A stretch of DNA of 52,856 nt from Bacteroidota bacterium (lineage in GTDB: Bacteria > Bacteroidota > Rhodothermia > Rhodothermales > Bin80). Under the pieces are notes generated by a model. That model did not search any database and was not told the origin of the DNA. It saw only the letters and a program-made list of their open reading frames with translations. Of the stretch, positions 4,880 through 38,186 are shown piece after piece (positions within the stretch are counted from its first letter, which is position 1; each line of letters begins with the position of its first letter). The stretch is taken from NCBI GenBank assembly GCA_028875125.1, contig JAPPGC010000012.1:1-52856 (forward strand), in the 5' to 3' direction. Both the position numbers and the translations under genes were made by a program.

Positions 4880-7633
4880 ATGCGCAGACTTCTTGGATTG
4901 ATATTTTTCGCTATTCTATGGTCCTTCCCCGCGCTGGGACAGGGCAAGATCGCCGGTCATATTGAAGATGCGGATGCCGGCGATGAACTCATCGGGGTGG
5001 CCATTCTTATTGATGATGGCACTGGGCGTGGAACGATCACGGATCTGGAGGGCAATTATGTGCTTCTCAATCTACGTCCAGGATTATACACTCTTGAGTT
5101 TTCGTATATCGGATACCAGACCCAATTAATTACTGATATTCGGGTAACCAGCGGGCAAACCACGCGTATTGACGTAAAGCTCCGTCAGAGCGTTATTGAA
5201 GGTGAAGAGCTAATCGTTCAGGCAGAGCGACCGCTAGTGCAAAAGGACCTGACAGCGTCAAAGAAAACAGTCGTTGCGGCAGAGATTGAGGCCTTGCCCG
5301 TTGAAAGTTTCTTCGGTGTCTTGGCCACGACCGCCGGCGTTACGACCGGCGCCCATGGCGAGTTGCACGTCCGCGGTGGACGCAGTAACGAAATCTCCTA
5401 TCTGGTTGATGGACTCGCCGTCAGCAATCCATTCAATACTAACGGAATAAACACGCGTGTAGCGATTGATGCAATTGAAGAACTAACGGTAATTTCCGGA
5501 GCTTTCAATGCTGAATATGGCAAGGCGATGTCGGCGGTCGTTAACCTGGTTACCAAGGAAGGGGGAGACCAGTATGAGGGCTCGGTGACTGCTTATGGAG
5601 GAGATTATCTTACACGCAATGACGAGTTGTTCCTCTTGCCGGAGGGGCTGAACCTGAATACGTTAACATTTGAGGGATCACTAAGTGGACCTATTCCGGT
5701 GGGGCCTCGAATGAGGTTCCTGGTATCGGGCAGGTACGATAATAACGATGGGCACTTGTATGGTATCCGCCAGCATCTGCCGAGCGACTCAGCTAATTTC
5801 AACAGCAATCCCTGGTACTACGAAATCCACGGCAAGCCATGGTGGGATTACGCGGATAGTACTGTAACGCTCCCGGACGGGACGGTCATTGAAGGTGGGG
5901 GACTGCCACTTCCCAGTGATCGCGTAGCCATGAATCCGAGTGAGCGCTTTAATGTACTTTCAAAGCTGACGACACGGCTGACACGCAATACACAACTGGA
6001 GTACTCGTACCTCATTGACAACAGTGAGGCCAAGGGCTTCAGTTTCGGTTATCGATACAACCCTGATGGTGTAGCTTCCAATCAACGGCGTAACCAGAAC
6101 CACAGTCTGCATTTTACGCATACGCTAAGTACACGCGCTTTCTATACGGTAAAGCTATCCTGGGCCAAGGCTTCGTACAAGTACTTTCTGTACGAAGACC
6201 CGCAGGATCCACGCTATGTCAAAGATATTGGGGCGATCGGTGCGGGGAACGTGATCGGGTTTCCCGGCAACAATTACCTTTTGGCCGGGAACCAGAAATC
6301 CCACATCTACGAAGATTCCCAGTCGTTGCGTGGCAAGGCAGATTTTACACGCCAGTTTGGTATCACGCACGAAGTGAAGGCAGGACTGGAGGTACAGCAG
6401 CATAGCCTGAGCCGCCAAAATTTTGTTGTACTCTATGACGGCAATCAGTACTTGGAGCCAACAGTTGAGCCGGTAGATAATCCGTCTCACGATCGTTACG
6501 ACGACCAGACCGTGCTGGAGCTGAGTGCATATGCCCAGGATAAGCTGGAATTTGACAACTTCATCATCAATGCCGGGCTCCGCTTTGAGCGCTTTGAGCC
6601 GAACGGCACATACATCCCGGATTTGTTTGACCCGCAGGGAGACCTTGCAGAGGCGTCAACCAAGAATTTGCTATTGCCCCGGTTGGGAGTTTCGTTCCCA
6701 ATTACAGAGCGTGGTATAATCCATTTTTCTTACGGGCACTTCGCTCAGATGCCCTCTCTGCGCAATCTGTATGTTAACCCGGAGTTTGAGTTTCCCAAAG
6801 GCAGTGCGCCTACGTTTGGCAATACCAACCTGCGCCCGGAGCGCACGGTTCAGTACGAATTTGGCCTTCAGCAGCAAATAGGTGACCTTTTGGCCGTACA
6901 TCTGACTGGTTACTTCAAGAACATACGGGATTACATGGCGCTGCAACTGGTGCGTCACTCTACAATTGCCGGTGAAGATCTGTACAATATCTACCTGAAC
7001 AAGGCATATGCCAACGTAACGGGGCTTACCGTCTCCTTTACCAAGCGCCGGGCACGCAATGGTTTTCTTTCCGCCACGCTGGATTATACATTCCAGATTG
7101 CCGAGGGTAGCGATGATGATGCGAACAGGTTCTTCTTCAACAGATTATCCGGTCGAGAGAATGAGCTAGAGGTTGTTCCACTTACATTTGATCAGCGCCA
7201 CGTGATTTCTTCAACGGTCACGTTGTCGCGTTCCAGAAGTTTGGGGCTGTCCTTCAATGGACAGTTCTCAACAGGATATCCGTATTCGCCTTTCATCCTG
7301 GACCAGAACGTGGACCTGCCTACGCGCAGCGGAAGAAAGCCATCCAAGTTGAGCTTGGATGTACACCTATTCAAGGAATTCACGGTGATGGATAATGTAC
7401 CGATCCGTGCTTTTGTCAAAGTGTTCAACCTGTTGGATCGCTTGAACGAGAACTTTGTGTTTAACGATACAGGTCGTGCTACCTACTCCCTGTCGGATCA
7501 GCGAAACCTCCATGCCACCTGGAAACCAAATTACGATCTTCCAGGCATCCACACGCTGGAAGAATATGACACGCGACCTCACTGGTATAGCTCGCCACGT
7601 CAGGTGAGAGTTGGCTTGACGGTGTCCTTCTGA
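4880..7633 (+). CDS. TonB-dependent outer-membrane receptor with carboxypeptidase-regulatory-like domain
   Basis: A 917-residue receptor from the ATG at 4880, where the signal peptide begins (MRRLLGLIFFAILW, cleavage near ALGQ). Residues about 20-110 form a CarboxypepD_reg-like beta-sandwich (IAGHIEDADAGDELIGV, TDLEGNYVLLNLRPG), typical of Bacteroidota receptors. A plug domain follows (LHVRGGRSNEISYLVDG, with EYGKAMSAVVNLVTK). The rest is a C-terminal beta-barrel ending in a terminal Phe (VGLTVSF), the usual barrel assembly signal. It should import or bind a ligand at the outer membrane using TonB energy. The ligand cannot be read from sequence. No SusD homologue is adjacent; instead the stop codon overlaps the start of a large secreted protein (TGATG at 7631-7635), implying translational coupling. 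Confidence 0.9.
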   Translation: MRRLLGLIFFAILWSFPALGQGKIAGHIEDADAGDELIGVAILIDDGTGRGTITDLEGNYVLLNLRPGLYTLEFSYIGYQTQLITDIRVTSGQTTRIDVKLRQSVIEGEELIVQAERPLVQKDLTASKKTVVAAEIEALPVESFFGVLATTAGVTTGAHGELHVRGGRSNEISYLVDGLAVSNPFNTNGINTRVAIDAIEELTVISGAFNAEYGKAMSAVVNLVTKEGGDQYEGSVTAYGGDYLTRNDELFLLPEGLNLNTLTFEGSLSGPIPVGPRMRFLVSGRYDNNDGHLYGIRQHLPSDSANFNSNPWYYEIHGKPWWDYADSTVTLPDGTVIEGGGLPLPSDRVAMNPSERFNVLSKLTTRLTRNTQLEYSYLIDNSEAKGFSFGYRYNPDGVASNQRRNQNHSLHFTHTLSTRAFYTVKLSWAKASYKYFLYEDPQDPRYVKDIGAIGAGNVIGFPGNNYLLAGNQKSHIYEDSQSLRGKADFTRQFGITHEVKAGLEVQQHSLSRQNFVVLYDGNQYLEPTVEPVDNPSHDRYDDQTVLELSAYAQDKLEFDNFIINAGLRFERFEPNGTYIPDLFDPQGDLAEASTKNLLLPRLGVSFPITERGIIHFSYGHFAQMPSLRNLYVNPEFEFPKGSAPTFGNTNLRPERTVQYEFGLQQQIGDLLAVHLTGYFKNIRDYMALQLVRHSTIAGEDLYNIYLNKAYANVTGLTVSFTKRRARNGFLSATLDYTFQIAEGSDDDANRFFFNRLSGRENELEVVPLTFDQRHVISSTVTLSRSRSLGLSFNGQFSTGYPYSPFILDQNVDLPTRSGRKPSKLSLDVHLFKEFTVMDNVPIRAFVKVFNLLDRLNENFVFNDTGRATYSLSDQRNLHATWKPNYDLPGIHTLEEYDTRPHWYSSPRQVRVGLTVSF

Positions 7634-10600
7634 TGAATTTTCGACTCAACAGCCTTCTGATCCTGGGTATATCGCTTTTAGTTGGGCAGGTGAACGCCCA
7701 GGAAATCGGCACGGATCGGTTGCGTGGATGGGATCAATTTGAAGTGAATGCTTGGCTGACGAATTTGGCGAAAATGCCGCTAATTCAAGGTGCTAATCAG
7801 GACTGCGAGCAGGGGCTTACTAATCGAAGGGACGCCATATTGAATGGTAATCGAATCACGACCCAGATTTTCAACTTCGGGTCGATTTCCGCACCTGGAA
7901 ATACGATCACAGATATTGTCTGGAATGGTCTCGGTTACGGATACGAGTTTGGACCGTTTGTAGCTGCGGAGGTAGTTGATACGTATCGTGAGGATGGGCG
8001 TGCGCGTGATCCCCAGAGTGTTGCCCTACGGGATGAAAACGGCAATCGTGTCCTTGACGCAAACGGTAATCAGGTCTACGTCATGCGGATTGTTTCCGAT
8101 GGGCTGGTCTCCAATGGCGGTGAAATCTCTCCGGATGGTTCTACTTACTGGGGCTGGCAACCGATACCATGTGCGGAGCCAGTCGGAAGCTTTGCAGGAA
8201 TTCAGGTGGTCAACCCCGTGTCGGACAAGATTCCAACGAATGACGATACCGACGACAACCTGGATGGGAAACCAGATTCATGGCCCGACGACTGGTACAA
8301 CGAAACCCTGGAACAGTACCTGTGGCCCGGTGCGCTTCGGCAGGGTGCCTCAAATGCAGATAAGGAGACACTCTACTTCATGAATGACTACAACAACAGT
8401 GAATTCAGTTATTGGCCATTTCCCAGCGACAGCACGAAGCGGGGGCTGGGCTTGGAGGTGGAGGTGCGGTTGTACCAGTGGGCCAATCCGCTCGCAGAGG
8501 ACGTCATCTTTTTGATCTATAAGATTACCAATAAGAGTGAAAAGGACCTTGATAAGGTAATCTTCGGGATGTGGGGAGACCCGCATGTGGGCGGACCAGG
8601 AGATTGGCCGGATGACTGGGCATTCTATGATGAAAATCTCAACATGGTTTTTGCATGGGATGATGACGGCCGCAGTGATATAGCGGGTCGTGTTCCTGGA
8701 TATTTTGGCTACAAATTTCTGGAAAGCCCGGGAGTGGATGATGATGGTATTGACAATGACGGAGATGGCCTGGTTGACGAGTCCTGGACGGACGGAATTG
8801 ATAATGATGGGGACTGGGATCCAGATCTGGATGATGTGGGGGTAGACGGGATTCCTGGGACCGGAGATATTGGTGAAGGCGATGGTATTCCCACCGCTGG
8901 TGATCAGTTTGATATTACCAAGCCCGGAGAGCCCAATTTTGAGTTTACGGATATTGATGAGAGCGATCAGTTTGGATTAACCTCCTTCGCGTCTCCTCCC
9001 TTTGCAGGGAATCGCGTTGATAATGATGAGCGCGTATGGAGTTTTATTCAGCCGGGGCGCTTTGATGTCGTACCCTCTACCCCGGGCGATTATGTGTTTC
9101 TGTACGGATCCGGGGATTTTCGACTGAAAGCTGGAGCCACCAAACGATTCTCCATAGCGCTGATTGTCGGTCAGAATCGTCAGGATCTAAGGCTCAACGC
9201 GAATATAGCCCAGCAGATCTATGATGTTGGATATGTTTTTGCTAAGCCCCCGCAGAAGCCTACATTGCGAGCGTCGACCGGAGATAAACGCGTCACACTG
9301 TACTGGGACGATGTTGCTGAGCAGTCTGTTGATCCGCTTACACGCGAGCAGGACTTTGAGGGCTATGTGATCTATCGTTCGACGGATCACGAATTCTCGG
9401 ACCAGCAAACCATTACCGATATCAATGGGAGCAAGTTTCTGTTTACGCCACTCAAGACAGCCTTGGGTGTAGATGCCCGTTTTGATTTAGATAATGGGCT
9501 GAAGGGACCGAGCCCGATTACGTTCCCAGGTCGTGGCGTATCGTATGATCTGGGTGATGATACTGGACTGTTCCACACGTTTGTTGACTCCAATAATGTT
9601 GTTAATGGTCAAACATATTACTACACGGTCGCTGCCTATGACCGTGGATTTGCGGGCGAAGAGGAAGAAGCTTTTGCTAATGGTATTCCCCCCAGTGAGA
9701 CAAGCAAGACCATCACCTATGATCCGACCACTGATCGGTATATATTTGACCTGAACACCATAGCTGTTGTACCTGGTCCAAAAGTGGCAGGTTATGTCCC
9801 TCCTTCTGCACTGGATCCATCAGGTCTCGCACATGCGAGTGGGCATGCTACGGGGGCCATAGTGATCAATGTGGTTGATGAACTGGCCGTACGTGATGGT
9901 CAGACCTATCGCATTGAATTCTATGAGACCGATGAGGGTATTGCTTATTCGGTTATCAACGAGGGGCCCGTCACGGTGAGTGTGCTTGCTTCCCCAGGCA
10001 AGAGTCAGCGCACAACATTTAAGAACATTATCGAAAGCTCGCTCGAAGTGCGAACAGCAGACGGACGCCTGTTGGTGCAGGGCACAGATTACAGTGTCAA
10101 TGGGGCTATCGGGGCCATTAATGTTTTCCCGAGTGCGGGTATTTCTCCGGGGCAAGAGTTATTCGCTTCATTTCAGTACGCACCGCTCTTCGAAAGTAGA
10201 TTGCTTCAGAGTGAAGAGGCGAATATCGTGTTTGATGGGTTGCACGTTTTTGTGCAGGATGATCCACTGGAGCCGAATATAGAGGCTTCCGGTTGGACAG
10301 ACAGCGATACGCAAATTCCGTACCGGCTCCTTCCTCCTAGCACTGGTCCAAGGCGTATGCTCTACCCCGCGGACTACGAGATCAGATTCTCGGACTCACC
10401 AATCGGCAATGGTTTTAATAACAATTTGCCTATTCCGTTTGAAGTGGTGAATGTTACCCGCGCCAATATGCCAATTGATGTGTTTGTACCGGATGTTAAT
10501 CGGAATGGAGTGTGGGATGTTAATGAGCGTATCGTATTTCTGGAACAGGTTGATGGATTACTGACTGCGACCTGGGAGGTGCGAATGGATAACGTAGGAT

Positions 10601-27600: not shown

Positions 27601-28701
27601 ATGATCGACACCCTTAAACTTGAAAACTACAGGGGCTTTGAGAAGTACAAGCTTCGCGAGCTGTCCATGGTGAACTTGCTCGTCGGTCCCAACAACTGCG
27701 GGAAGACCTCGGTTCTCGAAGCGGTCCATCTCCTCGTGTCTCAGGGCGATCCGGATGTGTTGGTTAAATCGTCACAACGACGTTCGGAGTCGTACGCGGT
27801 GGAGGAACAATCGCCAGATACTCCCCACGTGCTACACTATCGCTATCCTCTACACCACCATTTCCATGGGCACAGACTGGAGCCTGGTGTACGTCTTTCT
27901 GTATCCACGGGTGCCGAGCTTGGTCAAGTTCAAATTTACATTGTAGAAGATGAACCCGATGATGCCCCCGATCTCTTTCCAGACTTCTCCGAGGCTGCTC
28001 GACCACTGGCTCTGTTGGTTCAGACTGGAAGCAGCAAAGGTGAAATCCGATTCCCTCTGACCGAAGATGGTTCTCTTGATTGGCGGTTTCGAAGGGTGCG
28101 CCGCCGCTCGGCGAGTCGGCGTCCGAAGCCGCCACCGACTGAGTTCGTGACTGCAGAGTCGCTAAACTCGCGCGATATGGCCGAGTCTTGGAACCAGGTC
28201 AACCGCGAGGGTCGGGAAGCGGAAGTGGTCGAAGCCATGAGGATTCTCCAGAGGGACCTGAAATCAATTTACTTTCCTACCGGTGCTTCATCGAGAGGTG
28301 GTCTCGGTGGTGTCCTGCTGGGCTTTCGGGGCGGCAATCCCCGTGTTCCAATTGGGAGCTATGGTGATGGCATGCGTCGTCTCCTGGCGCTTTCGCTTTC
28401 GTTGGTGCGAGCCACAGATGGGTTTCTCTTGATTGACGAGATCGATACCGGACTTCATTGGACCGTCTTGGAGGAAATGTGGAAGCTCGTTATTGACGCG
28501 GCGATCTCATCGTCGATTCAGGTCTTTGCGACGACCCACAGCCTGGACTGTATCAATGGCCTTGCGACGGTGCTCAAAAAGCGGCAGGACTTGGAGAAAA
28601 AGGTGTCTGTTCAGAAGATCGAACGGCAGCTGGATCACAGCGTGAGCTTTGGTGCGGTAGATATCGTCAAGGCGGCGGACCTCAGTATCGAAATGCGTTG
28701 A
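27601..28701 (+). CDS. OLD/PARIS-type AAA (ABC-like) ATPase of a two-gene defence module
   Basis: A 366-residue ATPase of the AAA_15/AAA_21 (OLD, SMC/Rad50-like) class. It opens with IDTLKLENYRGFEKY and Walker A GPNNCGKTS (residues 29-37). A signature-like GSYGDGMRRLLALSLSL lies near residue 252, Walker B LLIDEID near 276-282, and the H-loop FATTHSLDC near 312. The middle (about 90-230) is variable and may be the sensing insert. Its stop overlaps the ATG of a TOPRIM-like gene by one base (TGATG). ATPase plus TOPRIM partner is the layout of class 4 OLD-like/PARIS systems (AriA-AriB), where the ATPase senses a phage protein and releases the nuclease. Here the partner is DUF3226-like, so PARIS itself is not claimed. 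Confidence 0.85.
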   Translation: MIDTLKLENYRGFEKYKLRELSMVNLLVGPNNCGKTSVLEAVHLLVSQGDPDVLVKSSQRRSESYAVEEQSPDTPHVLHYRYPLHHHFHGHRLEPGVRLSVSTGAELGQVQIYIVEDEPDDAPDLFPDFSEAARPLALLVQTGSSKGEIRFPLTEDGSLDWRFRRVRRRSASRRPKPPPTEFVTAESLNSRDMAESWNQVNREGREAEVVEAMRILQRDLKSIYFPTGASSRGGLGGVLLGFRGGNPRVPIGSYGDGMRRLLALSLSLVRATDGFLLIDEIDTGLHWTVLEEMWKLVIDAAISSSIQVFATTHSLDCINGLATVLKKRQDLEKKVSVQKIERQLDHSVSFGAVDIVKAADLSIEMR

Positions 28702-29348
28702 TGTTTCAACTCTCGAAAGACCGTCACCAGTTGTATGTTGAAGGTCAGGACGACAAGCACGCGATTCGCCATTTGCTGATCCGTCATGGATTCGATCACC
28801 AGGAAGTTCAGGGATTCGTGGAGGACGAGGGGGACAAGCAGGGGGTACTCGATGCTATACCTATCGCAGTTAGTGCTGGAACTGGAAAGTCGATCGGTTT
28901 TGTGATGGACGCCAACGACAGTCCTCAGGACACATGGAGGGCGGTCACTGCGCTGCTCAGAGAGGTCGGCGTTCAAACCCCGAACGAGATTCCCGAGGGA
29001 GGCTTTGCAGGGGAATCAAAGACCTTCAGAGCTCGAGTGGGAGTGTGGCTCATGCCGGACAATCGGAAGACCGGGGCCTTGGAGGACTTTCTTCGGGATC
29101 TGATCGACGAAGGTGATCCCTTACTTCCCCTGGCGGAGAATTCAGCGCGAAAGGCGAAACAGCTGGGCGCTCAATATTCCGATGGGGACCACCGGAAGGC
29201 GCTTCTCCATACCTGGCTGGCTTGGCAGAAGGAGCCAGGTCTCCGATACGGTACGGCAATCAGGGCTCGCTATTTCGGGGTCGACGGTGCTGCCGGGAGG
29301 CGGTTTATCAATTGGTTCCAACATGTGTTTGGAGTGAGGGTGTTGTAG
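28701..29348 (+). CDS. DUF3226-like TOPRIM-fold protein, partner of the ATPase
   Basis: A 215-residue protein from the ATG at 28701; a TTG three nt upstream would add one Met. It resembles DUF3226, a TOPRIM-like fold. The first TOPRIM acidic residue is Glu14 in LYVEGQDDKHA. The metal-binding DxD pair of this family corresponds to VMDAND (Asp70, Asn72, Asp73), so the second acidic position may be Asn72 or shifted to Asp73. The C-terminal half has the family segment VWLMPDNRKTGALEDFLRDL. By analogy with OLD and AriB it is probably the effector nuclease held by the ATPase; toxicity and substrate (DNA or tRNA) are not known. Translationally coupled to the ATPase. Confidence 0.75.
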   Translation: MFQLSKDRHQLYVEGQDDKHAIRHLLIRHGFDHQEVQGFVEDEGDKQGVLDAIPIAVSAGTGKSIGFVMDANDSPQDTWRAVTALLREVGVQTPNEIPEGGFAGESKTFRARVGVWLMPDNRKTGALEDFLRDLIDEGDPLLPLAENSARKAKQLGAQYSDGDHRKALLHTWLAWQKEPGLRYGTAIRARYFGVDGAAGRRFINWFQHVFGVRVL

Positions 29349-30441
29349 CTGAGCGGTCACAGATCCATTGCTCCCAAGTTTCAAACGGCAACAAACAAGC
29401 ACGTAGCCAACCCCTCCTGTCACTGGAAGTTGATTAAGTTGACGAGTTGGTGGATGCCACTATGGGTCCGCCAACAAGAACTCCCAATACTCCCCAATCG
29501 ACGCAAACAGGTGATCGGGCCTTGACGTTCTATACAGCTCGATATCGGCCGATCTCCATCCAGCCCCAATCGCCACGACCCCCGCTGGCCGGGAAGCTTC
29601 CGTATCATCGGTCTGGGGTAGGTGTGAATGTTTACTCCAGATTGGCGCCATCCTCCGCATGGTGAGAATCAGCTGAGCGGGTGATGCCCTGGTAGTCGGT
29701 GGTCGGCGGAGTTCACAGGCTGAATCGGATCAGCGGGCTGGTGCTCAAAATCGTCGTACTCCCAGAGCCAACCTGGGCAAATCCCAAGATTCCAGTCGAT
29801 AACAATTTGAATTGCGCTGATTGTGACGCTGCCTTCGCACCTCCGCCCCGAATCCGTCGGCTAGGGCCGCACAAAAAGACCTTGAGCGTGGAGTGTGGGT
29901 TGGCGCCTTGAGCTCGGGCGGAGAGCGTTTTTGCCGCACTAACAAGTCGTGATCCGGGGCGGGGTCTGATTTTTGGATTCGAGGTCGATGTCACCGGGAT
30001 TATCGGCTTAGCTGATAACCTTCGCAATCCCCGAGTGAGTGCGGTATTTAGTAGGTGATTGGCGTTCAGTGGATTGATGCCTTCATTTGATGCGAACAGC
30101 GTCCTAGATTCAGAAGTGCTTCTATATTGAAACACGGAATTTGAAGCTCCTGTGTTCTTTCCAGCAACACCACGACATTTGCTTCTGAGGAGACGGAATA
30201 AATTGTGGTTGCAGTAGAGCCCAAACACGTTGAGGCTATACTTGACAATGTCTTTGATTTCTGGAGGTGTGGCATCAAGTCGTCGCAAGCATATTTATGA
30301 AGTGATGGCCGCACGAAGGTCACCTGTGTCTCCGAATGACACCAAAAAAAATGCACGAAATCGCAGCAACGAAACCTTAAGTGATTTTCGTCGTATATTT
30401 AATGGTACAGAAAATTGTTTACAACCAATATGGTGTAATTC
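29349..30441. other. 1.1-kb stretch inside the defence island with no supported gene
   Basis: No reading frame here has recognisable motifs. The longest (minus strand, 29713-30288) is low in complexity (Ser/Arg/Pro-rich), starts in a poor context and is matched by equally long readings on the other strand, so I do not call it. Short stretches in several minus frames (for example IGEYWEFLLADP near 29470-29505 and NLGICPGWLWEYDDF near 29745-29790) look protein-like but are not joined in one frame. That pattern would fit a decayed gene with frameshifts. The last 150 bp are AT-rich and should hold the promoter of the large HTH-nuclease-NTPase gene. Confidence 0.5.
30419..30438. promoter_or_regulatory. 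Imperfect palindrome abutting the start of the HTH-STAND gene (candidate operator)
   Basis: TTACAACC and GGTGTAA form an inverted repeat around AATAT, with one unpaired A in the left arm. It ends 3 nt before the ATG at 30442, covering the place of a ribosome-binding site; no Shine-Dalgarno sequence is visible. The downstream protein starts with an MqsA-type HTH, and such antitoxins repress their own promoters by binding palindromes. The site is therefore a reasonable autorepressor operator, but this is inference. Confidence 0.35.
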
Positions 30442-33400
30442 ATGAGTAATCTTCAACCGTTCACGCCGAAGCGTGTTCGATCAATTCGCAAACACCTTGG
30501 TCTCAGTCAGGAGGAAGCTGGCAGGCTCTTGGGAGGCGGTCCACGCGCGTTCGCGAAGTATGAAACCGGTGCCCTGAAGCCAAGTGCCGCTGTGATCAAT
30601 CTGTTGCGAATACTGGAAATTGATCCTAGCGTTCTCTCAACTCTGAAGGATGAAGACTCTTCAGCGGCCCACACCAGTGTAGCCACCCCCTTTGAGGTAA
30701 CAGGGGCTGACATCGCTTGCCTGAGTCCAGAACCAATGTCACAACTGTTACGACGGCTCTTGATTGCGGAAGCAGCAAAGTTCAATCTTTCGATGGATGG
30801 AATCTCAGTCCCCAGCAATATCCATGCGCCCGATGGAGGGGAAGATGGACGAATTTCATGGGAGAACTACCCTGAGCGCACTCCATTCCTGCCATTCCGC
30901 CTTTGTCAATTTCAAATGAAGACTGGTAAAACATATCCAGGCCGGGCAGCCAAGGATGTTCTTACTACAGGAGGCGATGTTAAGCCGATGATTCATTCGG
31001 TTCTTGAGGATGGTGGATACTACATCGTGCTTAGCGCACAGCGTTGCAATCAACAGATGGTAGAAAGACGTCAACGGGCTATCTGCAAAGCTCTGAATCA
31101 GGGTGGATTAGTAGATGTGGATCAACGAGTAGAGTTTCGAGAAGCTGATCAAATAGCTACTTGGGTAAATTCACATCCATCGGTGGCTCTTTGGGTAGGG
31201 GAAAAGGCTGGACTCGGGGCGCAAGAGGGGTTTACCACTTGGGAGCACTGGAGCGGCCGAAGTGAGCATTTGGTTTCCTGGGTAGAAGACCCCCGTTTGG
31301 CCAAATTGATCGAGAAGCTTAAGGTTTCAGTGACCAAGCCCCAAGGAGTGCTCCAAGTGATCGGATTATCAGGAATCGGTAAGTCCCGGCTTTGTCTCGG
31401 AGCACTGAACAGGTTAGGCAAAGACGAAGATACTAGCCGTATGCTTCGGGATTTTGTGATGTACACAGTAAAATCTGAAGTAAATGTACAAGCCACCATT
31501 CGGACAGTCGAGAAATTGGCAATCTCTGGAGCACGTGCCATTGTGGTAGTAGACGATTGCGATCAGCTGACTCGTGCAAAACTGGACAGGATTGTATCCC
31601 GCGCCGACAGCTGTCTTTCACTGATAACCATTCACAACGAGATTCCAGAACGAATCAATGCGGACACCTATGAAATTGAAAATGCCCCGACGACTACAAT
31701 TGAATCTATCGTTGAAGATGTCGCTGAGACAATGTCGGACGTGGATCGGGATCGGCTTGCACGTCTGTCAGAGGGGTTCCCGGAAGTTGCGATCCGAATC
31801 GCTAGAGAATCTGAGATGGGGGAGTACCTTATTGATCCGGTTGATGGCGATTTCATAGATCAATTCGTCTGTGGTCGAAGATCAATGGAAAATGAACAGC
31901 TGCTTCAGTCAGCACAACTGCTTGCGGTGTTTGGAACAATTCGAATAGAGTCTGCAGAAAAAGGATCCTATGTTTTGGGACAGGAATCCTCATCGGGAGA
32001 TCATATCACGAAAATAGCGGAACTTAGCCATCAACTAAACTCTGAAGATCTGCAAATACAAATTGAAGGATACAAGGGACTCGTGGAACGAGGCATCGTA
32101 AAGCCTAGAGGGGGGCTCAGGACGATTGAGCCCCGTCCCATCGCGGTCAGGCTTGCGGAGCGGCAGTGGATGGACTGGGGTCGAGAGAAGTGGGACCGGG
32201 TGCTAACAGGCGACATCGGTGCTGACCTCAATGTCTCTGCCGCCAGACGTCTCGCTGAACTGAATGGCACAGAGATAGCCCAAAAGGTGGTGGCTCATGT
32301 GTTACGGCAAAACGGTCCCTTTGACCGGACAAATAGTATTCATCTTCCAGGTCGTGCAGAAGTGCTGTCGGCTCTCGCCGAGATCAATCCATATGCTACT
32401 GCGGAATGCACTAAACTACACTTAGACCGCTTGGGTGATCTATTTAAGCTTGGAGAAAATCTGCATAGTATTCTTGTTCGAATGTCGAGCAAGATTGCGT
32501 TCCACTCGGAAACCTTCAAGATCGGCGCTCGGCTTCTACTCCAATTAGAGGTCTCAAAACCATACTCATTAATTCCAGATGCTTCACGTCACTTCGCAAA
32601 ACTCTTTTCTCCAGTGCTTGGAGGTACCGAAGCAGATGGCAGGACTCGGCTCTTTTTTCTTGACGAGATTATTAATGAGTACGACAAAACGAACGATACA
32701 GAACAGCTAAAATATATCGTTGATGCTTTGCACGAAGGCAGCATGATGATGGATAAGTATTTCCGCATGCGAGGACCGGAGATTCAGGGTTCCCGAAAAG
32801 CATTGGATTCATGGTTTCCGACCTCGAGGCGGGAAAGGGACGACTATATCATGGGATGCGTGAAGCTTCTTGGAGAACTTGCGAAACGAAAGGACGAAGT
32901 GGGGGTGAAGGCTCGTTCAACTCTCGGCCTCTCAATTTCATTTCTGGTTCGTAGCGGATTCCTGAAGGAAGTTGAGAAAGTGATCTCCATGGTGATTCAT
33001 GAGGGCGAATCCTGGACCATGGCACTTCGACAACTGAAGGCTAGTCTTGTCAATAAATCCAGCCGAATGGATGACGAAACGTCCAAGCGGATTCGATCTC
33101 TGATCAAAGAACTTGAGCCGGACAACCTCCGGGAGCGTGTCCGCCTTCAAGTTACAGAACCTCCGATGCCTGAATCAAGGGACGAAGAATGGTCGGTAGA
33201 AGAGGACTTCAAGCGCCGTCGTGCCATTGCCCGAGCACTGGCCGGTGAGCTACTACAGGAGTCACCAACTCTAAAAGAAATCCTGCCCGAGATCAGCAGT
33301 GGTAGGCAATTCATAGCCTATGAACTCGGGGAGGCGCTTGCGGAGTGTGCGCCTACACCACTCACGTGGCTGGAACCAATTGTTCAAGCCGTAAAAGGTG

Positions 33401-34614
33401 TACCTGCATCCAATCGGAGTTATGATTTGCTTTCGGGATTCGTTGCACGCCTTCCGGAGAAATTCCAGGATGAGGTTGAAGAATTAAAGATGAGGGCGAT
33501 TGAATCGCCCGATCTTGTATCTGCCTTCCCCGTGATTTGCGAGCGGGTTGGTCTCAGACAGGAGGACATTGACCGAGCCATTGACGCTCTGTACCGGCGT
33601 GTATTGGCACCATGGGATCTGCGCCATTGGGCCTTCATCGGGGTGCTAAGGAAGGTCCCACCATTCAAGGTTGCGTTGTTGCTTGACGCAATGCTTGACC
33701 ATAGCGCCCCGTCCTTTGCGCTCGCGGTTACTATCCTGGGTCGGATTCTTGATGATGAGGGCGATGAAAATAAGAAGGTATGTTCTGGGTCGCATTTTTT
33801 CAAAATAGCAGATTTTCGGCCCCAACTTCTGAAAATGATTCAGAACGCCGGCCGTTGGAGTACGACGGATTTCAAGCCTCCCACACAGGGACAACAGTCA
33901 GGAATTCAACTTGACATGGTAGAATATCACTTTGAAGAGATTATGCATATGATGCTGGCTAAAGGTCGCGAGGATTCTGACGCTTGCAAAACGGTTTTGG
34001 AACTTGCCAGGACTCTTGTTCAGGGAGATAATCATGACTTGTTTTATCCGGCGAAAAACAAGCCAACGTCTGTGCTTGGTAGAATGTTAACAGGTTATCC
34101 GGATATTGTGTGGCCAATTGTCGGAGGAGCCATTATGGAGAATCCTCGGTTCGCGAACCACATGAGATATTTCTTGGGACAGCCGTATATCCTTAAACGT
34201 GACTTCAGTCCACCGATCCTAGATGTTCCCGAAGACATATTGTTCGCTTGGTGCCACGCCAATCCAGATGGCGCTCCTGCATTTATGGCTCAGTGTGCTC
34301 CATTTCTATCCAATGAGGACGGCGATATCGATAGTGCAAGCCTCCATCCTGTTATGTCTCGACTTCTGGACGAATTCGGTGAACGCAACGATGTACACGA
34401 GGCCTTGGAGGGCCACATTCAGCCCTACCATTGGGTTGATTCCTGTGCCGGCCATTATGCCCGCCTAGAGAAGATTTTCCAACAACTTGAGACTCACTCA
34501 AACCCTAGAGTGCGGCAATGGGCAGAAAAAATGCGTTTACGGGTAGCGCAATCTTTCAAGCGAGAGACAATCCTAGACGAAGAAAGAAAGGCGCAGCGGC
34601 GCTGGATTGGTTGA
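30442..34614 (+). CDS. MqsA-type HTH / PD-(D/E)XK-like nuclease / STAND NTPase fusion, putative anti-phage protein
   Basis: A 1390-residue protein I cannot assign to a named system. Residues about 7-66 are an HTH of the type found at the C-terminus of MqsA/YgiT antitoxins (VRSIRKHLGLSQEEAGRLLG, FAKYETGALKPS). Residues about 95-205 look like a PD-(D/E)XK-type nuclease: GGEDGR (Asp135), then a strand CQFQMKTGK with a Q158-x-K160 pair, and YYIVLSAQ. A P-loop follows, VIGLSGIGKSR (about 306-316), with Walker B AIVVVDDCD (about 366-374), as in STAND/NACHT-like ATPases. The remaining 850 or so residues are helical, rich in charged and Leu residues, and may be HEAT/TPR-like, the usual sensor end of STAND proteins. 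Nuclease-STAND-repeat order matches the logic of Avs proteins, but the N-terminal HTH is unusual. It has its own upstream region and sits between other defence genes. Confidence 0.72.
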   Translation: MSNLQPFTPKRVRSIRKHLGLSQEEAGRLLGGGPRAFAKYETGALKPSAAVINLLRILEIDPSVLSTLKDEDSSAAHTSVATPFEVTGADIACLSPEPMSQLLRRLLIAEAAKFNLSMDGISVPSNIHAPDGGEDGRISWENYPERTPFLPFRLCQFQMKTGKTYPGRAAKDVLTTGGDVKPMIHSVLEDGGYYIVLSAQRCNQQMVERRQRAICKALNQGGLVDVDQRVEFREADQIATWVNSHPSVALWVGEKAGLGAQEGFTTWEHWSGRSEHLVSWVEDPRLAKLIEKLKVSVTKPQGVLQVIGLSGIGKSRLCLGALNRLGKDEDTSRMLRDFVMYTVKSEVNVQATIRTVEKLAISGARAIVVVDDCDQLTRAKLDRIVSRADSCLSLITIHNEIPERINADTYEIENAPTTTIESIVEDVAETMSDVDRDRLARLSEGFPEVAIRIARESEMGEYLIDPVDGDFIDQFVCGRRSMENEQLLQSAQLLAVFGTIRIESAEKGSYVLGQESSSGDHITKIAELSHQLNSEDLQIQIEGYKGLVERGIVKPRGGLRTIEPRPIAVRLAERQWMDWGREKWDRVLTGDIGADLNVSAARRLAELNGTEIAQKVVAHVLRQNGPFDRTNSIHLPGRAEVLSALAEINPYATAECTKLHLDRLGDLFKLGENLHSILVRMSSKIAFHSETFKIGARLLLQLEVSKPYSLIPDASRHFAKLFSPVLGGTEADGRTRLFFLDEIINEYDKTNDTEQLKYIVDALHEGSMMMDKYFRMRGPEIQGSRKALDSWFPTSRRERDDYIMGCVKLLGELAKRKDEVGVKARSTLGLSISFLVRSGFLKEVEKVISMVIHEGESWTMALRQLKASLVNKSSRMDDETSKRIRSLIKELEPDNLRERVRLQVTEPPMPESRDEEWSVEEDFKRRRAIARALAGELLQESPTLKEILPEISSGRQFIAYELGEALAECAPTPLTWLEPIVQAVKGVPASNRSYDLLSGFVARLPEKFQDEVEELKMRAIESPDLVSAFPVICERVGLRQEDIDRAIDALYRRVLAPWDLRHWAFIGVLRKVPPFKVALLLDAMLDHSAPSFALAVTILGRILDDEGDENKKVCSGSHFFKIADFRPQLLKMIQNAGRWSTTDFKPPTQGQQSGIQLDMVEYHFEEIMHMMLAKGREDSDACKTVLELARTLVQGDNHDLFYPAKNKPTSVLGRMLTGYPDIVWPIVGGAIMENPRFANHMRYFLGQPYILKRDFSPPILDVPEDILFAWCHANPDGAPAFMAQCAPFLSNEDGDIDSASLHPVMSRLLDEFGERNDVHEALEGHIQPYHWVDSCAGHYARLEKIFQQLETHSNPRVRQWAEKMRLRVAQSFKRETILDEERKAQRRWIG

Positions 34615-34800: not shown

Positions 34801-37665
34801 TCAATGAAGGTTTTTAGTGAGCAGTTCCTGGAGAGCCAATTCGTCCGTGATGTCGGCGGGCCAACCGTAGGCAGCAGCCACTGCGTTGTCGAGTTGGACA
34901 TGCGCATCAACAAGCCATTGTGGTCGGGCATTGTAGAGATTGGTCAGGGTTTTTTTCTTGAGCTTGATTTCGGCCTCTCTGTCGCGTGGCACCGGGCGCC
35001 TTGGATATCCACGTACTGGCTCGTCTATCCACTTCACCCATTCAGGCGGATTGAGCCAGCGGTCTCGAAGTTCGACGAGCCGCCGGGCCGCCGATGCAAT
35101 GGCTTGTGCATGCGGATTCGTGCAGAAGTTACTGGCTAGTATGTCGGGCGAGAGGCCGTCTGGGAAAGGGAAGGTTTCGAACGTCGTGGTGGGAGTGTAA
35201 CGGGGATCGTTGCCTTTGTCAAGCCAAGTCCCCATGCGTAGCGACCAGATCTCATGGAACCGGCTGTGCAAGACTCCAAATGTTGTGTCATCATCTCGTG
35301 CGAAGGCAATTAGAGCACTATCGGGGCAGATTTGGGCGTCGAACCAAACGAAGAGGCGATGTTTTGACACGCGTGGCGTAGCAATATAGCGCGACAGCCC
35401 CTCGAGAGCACTCCACATATTTGGTCTTGGTCTATGGTGCAACCACCATTCATGACGTCTTCCATCTACGCGCTGAGTTTCCCATACCGGTTGAACATGC
35501 TTCTGTGCGTGCTGGAATGGGGACTCGTACAGAGCAGCTTCCGCCTTCGTCATACTGAAGCCGAAGTCGATGATCCATTTGTCGGCTGGGCGCCGCGTAA
35601 TGGCCATACCGTTCATCCAAGGCTTAAGCACATCCGAGTTGGGTCTGCCATTAGGATTTGCGGGCTCCTGAAGCCACTTCCTTGCGAGGTCTCCAGGAAT
35701 ATCAAACCGGCCACCCTTGGTGTCTCCCATGAAGGCCACCCCTGTGTTCCGCACGAGACGCTGTGCCCTCGTCAGATCAACGCCAGTCTCGCCGCGACGT
35801 GCCGTCAGATCTGTATAGATCTCGTCCACCGCTTTGCCGTCAAGTCGATACTGCACTATGGGGTCACGGTAAAACTGGGAGAAACATACTAGTGAGACAC
35901 GCACGGCCGCGCCATCAACCACCCACGGTTCGTCGCACCATGCGTTAAAAATCGTCTTTTCCCCAGTCGCTTTCTACAATGCACGGCGATTCGCTCCGCC
36001 ACGAATGGAGTTGGTCGCAACCAGCCCCGCCCGCTCTGAAGACATTGTATCTACATGTTCTCCAGCCTTCACGAACCAATAACAGACCAGATCGCACTCA
36101 TGTGGTACCCGGTTCTTATAGATTTTATACAGAGTTGATACATAATCCTCGCCGAGGTTTGCGATGAGCCGTTTCCCACCCAAGAACGGGGGGTTACCGA
36201 TGATGACATCTGCGTCAGGCCATTCTGCTTCTCCACCTTCGGGGGTCAAAAGTGCATCTCGGCATTCTATCGTTTCCAGCGCATCAAGGATGGGCTCTTC
36301 GTGACCCGCAAAACCGTTTCTTCGCATCCACTGGATTTCTCCAATCCACACCGATACGCGCGCTAGTTCGGCAGCGTATGTGTTCAACTCGATCCCCTTC
36401 ACGTTGGCGGGGCCGACCGTAGGGAAGGCACGTGGGAGTCCTAGAGCTTCAGCTTCTACTTGTACTCGGTGCTCCAGATCGTGCATCGTGTGGAGCGCGA
36501 GGTAAAGAAAGTTGCCCGAGCCGCAGGCGGGGTCAAGGACAGTAAAATTCCTTAGTCGTTCGAGAAACGAGTTAAGCATACTCTTAGCCTGATTGCGGTG
36601 CCGAGTTTCCACTCCTGCTTCCGACACGCGGGCACGTTCAAGACTGTCGGCAATCCGAGCCTTCTCAGTCTTCCACTCGGCCAGCCACGGGTGAACGATC
36701 ACCGGATCGATAATCCGCATGATTTTATCCCGATCGGTATAGTGTGCCCCGAGTTGAGATCGCTTGTCTGGATCGAGGCCTCGCTCAAATAGCGTACCCA
36801 AAATGGAGGGGTCAATGTTTGACCAATCAAGCTTGGACGCATTCAGCGCTATCCTAATCTGATCGAGAGACATGGGGAGTGCGACATTGTTCTCGAAGAG
36901 CCCACCGTTAAACCATTTCACAGTCTCGAATCCGACGTTACCCCCGACAGACATAGCCTGAAAAAGGGTGCTCGCCAACACCGCGAATTCCTCTGGTCGG
37001 TCACGAGCATTTTCAAGCATACGGGTGAACATGTTGTTCGGGAGAATACCTACATCTTCGGCAAACATGCAGAAGACAAGGCGATTTACGAAGTGTGCTA
37101 CATCCTTGGGTGCGTGTCCCTGACCTCTAAGCGACTGCGCAAGTTGCGCAAAGGTCTCCGCAGCGCGTTCCGTGAGAGTCTGCCGGGTTTCGCTTGGGCG
37201 TAGGCGTTCCGGGTCCGACATCGCCCACTTGAGCTTGTCCCGTACGGCACTATCAACGAACTCGTCCAGCCCGAATTCGTGAGTCTTGCTCACTGAATTC
37301 GTCCAATTGGTCCGAATCCGGAACCGGTGCATGTCCGAGACGATTAGTAGCGGGGGGTTCTCCAAAGCCAACGCGTATTGCCTCAGTTGGTCGAAAGCAT
37401 TATCAAGATTCGCGTGTTTGCCCTTGTATTCCCAGGCAAAGAAGCCTCGCTTCCACACGTCTGCCCAGCCCTCCCCGCCTGAGTCCTTGCGTGCTCCGCG
37501 CTCGAAGCAGTAATGGTCTCCCTTGGGGTCAATTTCTGCCGGCGTAGGTTCGTCGAGCAGTCGGCACAAGTCAATGAAGTGCTCTTGCGCTGCGGAACGT
37601 TCCTTTAACTGCGAAGCACGCCATTTTGCGATAAATTCGTGAGGTGATAAAGTCGGGAATTTCAT
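34801..37665 (-). pseudogene. MmeI-like type IIL restriction-methylation gene interrupted by an in-frame amber codon
   Basis: Read through, this is a 955-codon gene (ATG at 37665-37663, final TAA/TAG-type stop at 34801), matching MmeI-family length. The N-terminal nuclease has Asp69, Glu79 and Lys81 (DVWKRGFFAWEYKGK), the same spacing as the D-E-K triad known in MmeI. The methyltransferase has DPACGSGNFLYLAL (SAM motif I, about residue 377) and NPPFLGGKR (motif IV, about 490). Codon 564 is TAG (35976-35974), between ANRRAL and KATGEKTIFNAW. The frame continues without change into WVVDGAAVRVSLVCF and on to the end, so one substitution explains the break. The first piece lacks the target-recognition part and the rest of the methylase core, so activity is doubtful unless the stop is read through or is a sequencing error. 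A TTG at 37707 could add 14 residues. The reading frame on both sides is otherwise intact, so any inactivation is recent. Confidence 0.82.
35974..35976 (-). other. Internal TAG codon splitting the MmeI-like gene
   Basis: The codon reads TAG on the minus strand with the same frame open on both sides. Homologues normally have Glu, Gln or another polar residue at this point, so CAG or GAG to TAG is a single-base change. The first in-frame GTG after it (35922) has no visible ribosome-binding site. TAG is used as a normal stop by other genes here, such as those ending at 4757, 12088 and 13720, so general amber recoding is unlikely. Confidence 0.85.
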
Positions 37666-38186
37666 GTGCCGAGAAGTTCTACCCGCTACCAACTCAATTT
37701 CTGCCAAGAGAGGAGTGCATCCAATGCTTTTCGTTTTTGCGGGGCCCTATACCACCTGCGAGATTCCAAGAGAGGAGGGTATCCGTGACAACCTGATATC
37801 TGTAGTAACATTAGACTTCAATGGTTCTATTGCAATTCGCTGATTACATGAATCGTTCATGAAGCATACATCCCTTTTGGGCGATGTCCGTAGAATTGCA
37901 AATTTCGAGGTAGCGTTGCAGACTCTTGTAGGTGAAAACTCCAAGTTAATGCAATTGTAGGATTCTACGGGACGCTGCCCAACAGAATCAGCACAACACA
38001 ACAGGTAACATTTTTAGATTGAGTCACAGATATTCCGGACATCGGACAACTTGCAATATTAAATGGTGAATGACTTGTCAAATGAGGCTGTGGAAAATTT
38101 GCCAACAGATGCTGGCATATGTCGTGAATCCCTGTACACTACGCCGGTCAGGCCTTCTGACGGAGCATCTTTCCTTTTTGGAGTGC
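37666..38186. other. Non-coding stretch closing the defence island
   Basis: About 520 bp between the start of the MmeI-like gene and the stop of the M16 peptidase gene. An 84-codon minus-strand reading (37747-38001) has no recognisable content and is Cys/Asn/Ser-rich, so it is not called. The region is AT-richer than its flanks and must hold the promoter of the MmeI-like gene. I see no tRNA, integrase or clear att-like repeat that would mark an island boundary. Confidence 0.5.

Follow-up and report, generated by a model that had tools for sequence, protein, structure and literature searches.

A distant PD-λ-4_A homologue with a fused MqsA-type helix-turn-helix and a candidate operator at its own gene start

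We analysed a stretch of 52,856 nucleotides from a Bacteroidota bacterium of the Rhodothermales (contig JAPPGC010000012.1 of assembly GCA_028875125.1; hereafter the window), and describe here a single gene at positions 30,442 to 34,614 of its forward strand, which starts with ATG and whose product of 1390 amino acids joins a helix-turn-helix (HTH), a PD-(D/E)XK nuclease, a STAND NTPase and a helical solenoid. We propose that it encodes an immune protein of the PD-λ-4_A family, made by one gene and equipped with its own autorepressor, a reading to which, as a whole, we give a probability of about 0.66, and that the N-terminal HTH probably keeps its own gene off. The proposal is drawn from sequence, namely from the domain order, the conserved residues for catalysis and NTP binding, a candidate operator at the gene start, selection on the HTH, and an independent gain of a LexA-type domain that also comes with a palindrome. 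The reading frame is unbroken from 30,442 to 34,614, and an in-frame TAA two codons 5' of the ATG rules out a start further upstream.

Residues 84-1383 of the protein matched positions 4-1279 of the 1283 in the PADLOC model PD-Lambda-4_A (PDLC03991) with E=6e-71, at an identity of only ~20-25%. PD-λ-4 is an E. coli system obtained in a functional selection for phage resistance, and its prototype protects against phage (Vassallo et al., 2022; PMC9519451). As the match runs from end to end, the nuclease-STAND-solenoid part is, by profile comparison, a distant homologue of PD-λ-4_A and falls into a defence family already known, the HTH being an addition to this part. The two systems share this part over its full length, with identical invariant motifs; they differ in that the E. 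coli system has a gene B and no HTH, whereas the window gene has the HTH and the candidate operator and no B. A first-pass annotation of this DNA had put the gene forward as an undescribed anti-phage system, and had counted a named system of the same domain order among the findings that would speak against this. PD-λ-4_A has that order except for the HTH, so the novelty, judged from these alignments, lies in the fused HTH alone. A literature search, which covered open-licence papers only and is weak evidence of novelty, gave no description of such a fusion.

The majority of relatives have no HTH and start at the equivalent of residue ~84. They were found in bacteria of the same phylum, on proteobacterial, cyanobacterial and haloarchaeal plasmids, and on prophage-like contigs. 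Six members carry the HTH: the window gene and the homologues that we call G007, G009, G012, G014 and L019. The first two, from the same genus as the window organism, are ~70% identical to the window gene, G012 ~50%, and L019, from an alphaproteobacterial metagenome-assembled genome, 38%; G014 belongs to the same family as the window organism. A quick maximum-likelihood tree, built on the part common to all members, grouped the six into one clade, with a Shimodaira-Hasegawa-like approximate likelihood ratio (SH-aLRT) support of 100. The scan of genome contigs returned one relative, and a scan of viral sequences with L019 as query returned none. By tblastn, PD-Lambda-4_B was found neither in the window nor at the other distinct loci, with the exception of L042 (one contig with L072), which is in all essentials the E. 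coli prototype (2530 bits to PD-Lambda-4_A, with PD-Lambda-4_B 49 bp downstream); this genome likewise has no B. The prototype A gene was matched in 151 of 5426 complete E. coli genomes. No separate MqsA-type HTH gene was found beside any of the HTH-less members. A small open reading frame at L023:647-1024, 67 bp upstream of an HTH-less PD-λ-4_A relative, is possibly a separate regulator and looks HTH-like by eye; it was set aside as such, having no Pfam or PADLOC match. The PD-λ-4_A relative at L083:3764-9468 and the DNA-methyltransferase-like gene whose end it directly overlaps (by eye, of the type III mod kind) are possibly one operon.

The HTH, which the first-pass annotation had already read as MqsA-type, occupies residues 8-68 (30,463 to 30,645, forward strand). 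It matched Pfam MqsA_antitoxin (PF15731; 1.2e-13), NCBIfam TIGR03830 (6.8e-18) and the PDB entry of MqsA, 3fmy (2e-9), and was modelled as five helices by AlphaFold2 (model of residues 1-520; predicted local distance difference test score, pLDDT, 82.3). The Pfam match begins at residue 8 of the protein and covers profile positions 70-130 of 131, which means that the DNA-binding half of MqsA alone is present, and that the N-terminal zinc-binding, MqsR-neutralising half is missing. Hence what the protein shares with the MqsA antitoxin is the C-terminal HTH and the core of its operator; it differs in having no zinc-binding half and in the fusion of the HTH to an immune protein of 1320 residues. 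The earlier label of antitoxin is therefore misleading, and no MqsR toxin partner turned up, in a search that gave no signal in the control genomes either.

Between the HTH and the nuclease lies an unconserved linker (residues 69-83; 30,646 to 30,690, forward strand) of low model confidence, above all at residues 72-79. Between the window gene and L019, the most distant HTH-bearing member, the HTH is 56% identical and the other domains 32-48%, and from the same-genus relatives to this 38%-identical member the HTH is conserved at least as much as the other domains, catalytic parts included. The linker of 15 residues is unconstrained over the same range, so that the HTH is not a passenger; by this pattern of identities it is under purifying selection. 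A neutral read-through fusion with a functionless HTH would fit the unconserved linker, but not the conservation of the HTH, nor the persistence of the operator, nor the fact that other members acquired a repressor domain of an unrelated kind at this very position; we find it barely credible.

MqsA represses from AACCT-N3-AGGTT, that is AACC-N5-GGTT (PMC4894380). At 30,423 to 30,435 of the forward strand, 19 bp before the ATG of the window gene, lies AACCAATATGGTG, with an ACC-N5-GGT core at 30,424 to 30,434. The core was found before 5 of the 6 HTH-bearing members, at most 45 bp from the start codon (besides the window gene, G007 TACCACTATGGTG, G009 CACCATTAAGGTG, G012 AACCAAAATGGTA and L019 CACCATAAAGGTG). 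Its positions relative to the ATG in these five are -18, -17, -22, -43 and -39, in leaders that otherwise align poorly. When all gapped 3+3 palindromes were tested (64 x 12 = 768), ACC-N5-GGT was the only one common to at least four of the six HTH-bearing upstream regions. Within 60 bp of the start, all 29 other family members lack it; by chance, ~1% of regions of 60 bp would contain it. A perfect AACCTGTCAGGTT at -117 of L028 was set aside, as it falls inside an upstream methyltransferase-like gene. The genome, which is 98% complete, has no PF15731 match other than the fused HTH, so that the protein itself is the obvious reader of the site, and we regard AACCAATATGGTG as the candidate cognate operator of the fused MqsA-type HTH. 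An Rfam search of the window gave no match.

A parallel case was found elsewhere in the family. In L051, on a prophage-like contig, a LexA_DNA_bind domain (4.6e-13) sits where the window protein has its MqsA HTH. The gene spans 5836-9855, and the palindrome GAACATTTGTTC stands 37 bp before its ATG (box 5799-5810), GAAC-N4-GTTC being the LexA operator of Bacillus (PMC4234289). Among the family members examined, no other has GAAC-N4-GTTC within 150 bp. A homologue on a Xanthomonas campestris plasmid, 47% identical to L051, likewise has a LexA-type domain, and GTACATATGTTC, with one mismatch to GAAC-N4-GTTC, ends 3 bp before its ATG. In the tree, L051 was placed in a different part from the MqsA-HTH clade, and the LexA-type fusion thus seems, from sequence and tree, to be a second, independent gain of a repressor-type domain at the same place. 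Autoregulation best explains why repressor-type domains of two unrelated kinds are each found with a palindrome to match at the start of their own gene. The earlier suggestion that the HTH could silence the gene is now supported independently by the operator and by this parallel. In both LexA-type relatives (L051:5836-9855 and L115:2986 onward) the N-terminal domain is a winged HTH, and the palindrome where the gene starts is LexA-box-like. Of the two records of one Xanthomonas plasmid, NZ_CP101179.1 and NZ_CP081999.1, one holds the LexA-type homologue intact and the other in a disrupted frame (annotated as short).

These sites also bear on two other roles for the HTH. It might tether the nuclease or aim it at sites in phage or host DNA, the palindrome at the gene start being a by-product or a self-marking site; the DNA-binding domain does stand directly ahead of the nuclease, and different HTH families could aim at different sites. 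Yet the sole shared site found lies where the gene itself starts, in both of the unrelated DNA-binding-domain variants, and most family members do without any domain of this kind. Moreover, a site specified by 6 bp recurs every 4.4 kb or so (12 times in 52.9 kb), too often in host DNA for targeting to be safe, and we consider such a tether unlikely. Decidedly unlikely, in our view, is that the HTH works by decoy sensing and detects a phage repressor, an antirepressor or competition from a phage operator, with lost repression as the trigger. Prophages often encode repressor-type domains, and the family itself occurs on prophages and plasmids, but the analysis identified neither a phage site nor a partner, and the STAND module with its large solenoid already provides a sensor.

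The nuclease spans residues 84-285 (30,691 to 31,296, forward strand). In family alignments of 16, 19 and 29 sequences, which were used for residue conservation, D131-x-G-x-D135 and Q158-x-K160 were invariant and E110 nearly so; G133 was likewise invariant among the 16 aligned members. The AlphaFold2 model has a helix at 96-113 with E110, strands at 136-139 and 154-160 with the D and QxK motifs, a helix, and a strand at 193-198. Judged by the order of elements in this model, the succession is the one expected of a PD-(D/E)XK core, alpha-beta-beta-beta-alpha-beta. By hhalign the nuclease alignment matched Mrr_cat with 84-91% probability (E 1e-5 to 1e-6), whereas none of 20 control alignments, reversed or with shuffled columns, exceeded 0.9%. 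The nuclease-like block first noted by eye, with its K160, is thereby borne out. Mrr-type restriction nucleases share the profile match through D-G-G-x-D and Q-x-K, and differ in that Mrr on its own lacks both the STAND NTPase and the solenoid. A Cap4-type nuclease was rejected at 0.4% by hhalign, which is weak evidence since the Cap4_nuclease alignment holds few and divergent sequences. We predict that the Mrr-like domain cleaves DNA.

The STAND/NB-ARC-like NTPase follows at residues 286-520 (31,297 to 32,001, forward strand). In the 16- and 19-member alignments, the P-loop residues (308-314) G308, S310, G311, G313 and K314, D371 of Walker B (368-371) and C373 were invariant, and fold matches comprised clamp-loader/AAA proteins, the plant NB-ARC proteins NRC1 and WRR4A, CED-4 and Avs3. 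The ~870 residues beyond it (521-1390; 32,002 to 34,611, forward strand) were modelled as all-helical and solenoid-like (pLDDT 78.8), with fold matches to importins, exportins, NLRP9 and SAMD9; we take this HEAT/importin-like repeat as a putative sensor. A profile sequence search of solved structures gave weak P-loop matches and nothing else. The P-loop, the Walker B motif, the long helical part and the overall domain order thus agree with what had been proposed at first. Avs (AVAST) proteins share the N-terminal nuclease, the STAND NTPase and the long helical C-terminal sensor, and Avs3 (8dgc) was a Foldseek match over ~525 columns. They differ in their sensor, and the window protein is Mrr-like rather than Cap4-like by profile and has the HTH in addition; no Avs model was among the PADLOC matches at E<=0.1.

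The upstream neighbour of the window gene is a pair of AAA ATPase and DUF3226 genes (27,601-29,348), the PADLOC candidate PDC-M38. Beyond its other end lies a gene for an MmeI-type IIG restriction-methyltransferase (34,801-37,707, minus strand), in two open reading frames with one in-frame stop (codon 578 of 969), which may reflect a pseudogene, recoding or a sequence error. Housekeeping genes flank this set. Elsewhere, PD-T4-4/PD-λ-5/GmrSD-like genes neighbour the homologue L058, a PsyrT-like helicase stands beside the G014 homologue (L061), and Old beside L051. The neighbours of the G012 homologue (L060; 5702-11314) are metallo-beta-lactamase-like, E2/E1/JAB fusion and patatin genes, a set that resembles ubiquitin-like/CBASS-type defence sets. 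The claim of a location among defence genes stands in so far as the neighbourhood fits a defence role; it is no proof of one. HTH-STAND regulators exist, and the protein could be such a transcription regulator of host genes (e.g. an NB-ARC/TPR regulator) with no part in defence. The invariant nuclease motif, the homology to PD-λ-4_A, the restriction and AAA-TOPRIM-type neighbours in the window and the defence genes beside homologues speak against this, and we hold it very improbable. Among the other proteins of the source organism are type IX secretion sorting tails and TonB receptors, a content that points to the Bacteroidota-related FCB group.

Several observations weigh against an autorepressed immune nuclease. 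Three of the six HTH-bearing members come from one genus, and G014 has no intact ACC-N5-GGT site, though its gene is broken by an IS66-family element, which interrupts it near residue 734 (L061; G014:C1:444414-451600). The recognition helix reads GGGPRAF.KYE here as against GGGVNAFSRYE in MqsA. A scan for sigma-70 promoters gave nothing above chance, and as none was recognised, repression rather than activation is a guess. Both LexA-type members have no LexA protease domain, and host LexA could use their boxes too. Finally, the HTH-bearing clade alone matched Mrr weakly (8% probability), and the fold matches of the helical sensor had low template-modelling (TM) scores.

Taken together, we favour autorepression, in a model that we infer as follows. 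At rest, presumed dimers would bind the ACC-N5-GGT operator overlapping the gene leader through the MqsA-type HTH, and this occupancy would repress the gene and hold a dangerous nuclease down to a low level. Some phage component, detected by the C-terminal solenoid, would act as the trigger, and ATP-driven oligomerisation of the STAND module would activate the Mrr-like nuclease, which would then cut DNA; that such activation serves in defence is suggested by membership in the PD-λ-4 family. Oligomerisation might also pull the protein off its operator, so that expression rises. The receptor would then be its own repressor, and the sensing of phage would strip the HTH from the operator and bring the gene to high expression, a step that we put forward tentatively, as possible rather than probable.

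How auto-toxic STAND nucleases are kept silent until needed is largely an open question in bacteria. Here a repressor domain and its operator are apparently built into the receptor's own gene, by way of two unrelated DNA-binding domains, so that the regulation of such immune proteins becomes directly testable. If true, our model would link sensing to expression in one polypeptide, as a single-protein immune switch that amplifies itself and that arose on two or more occasions in one family, with an MqsA-type and with a LexA-type domain.

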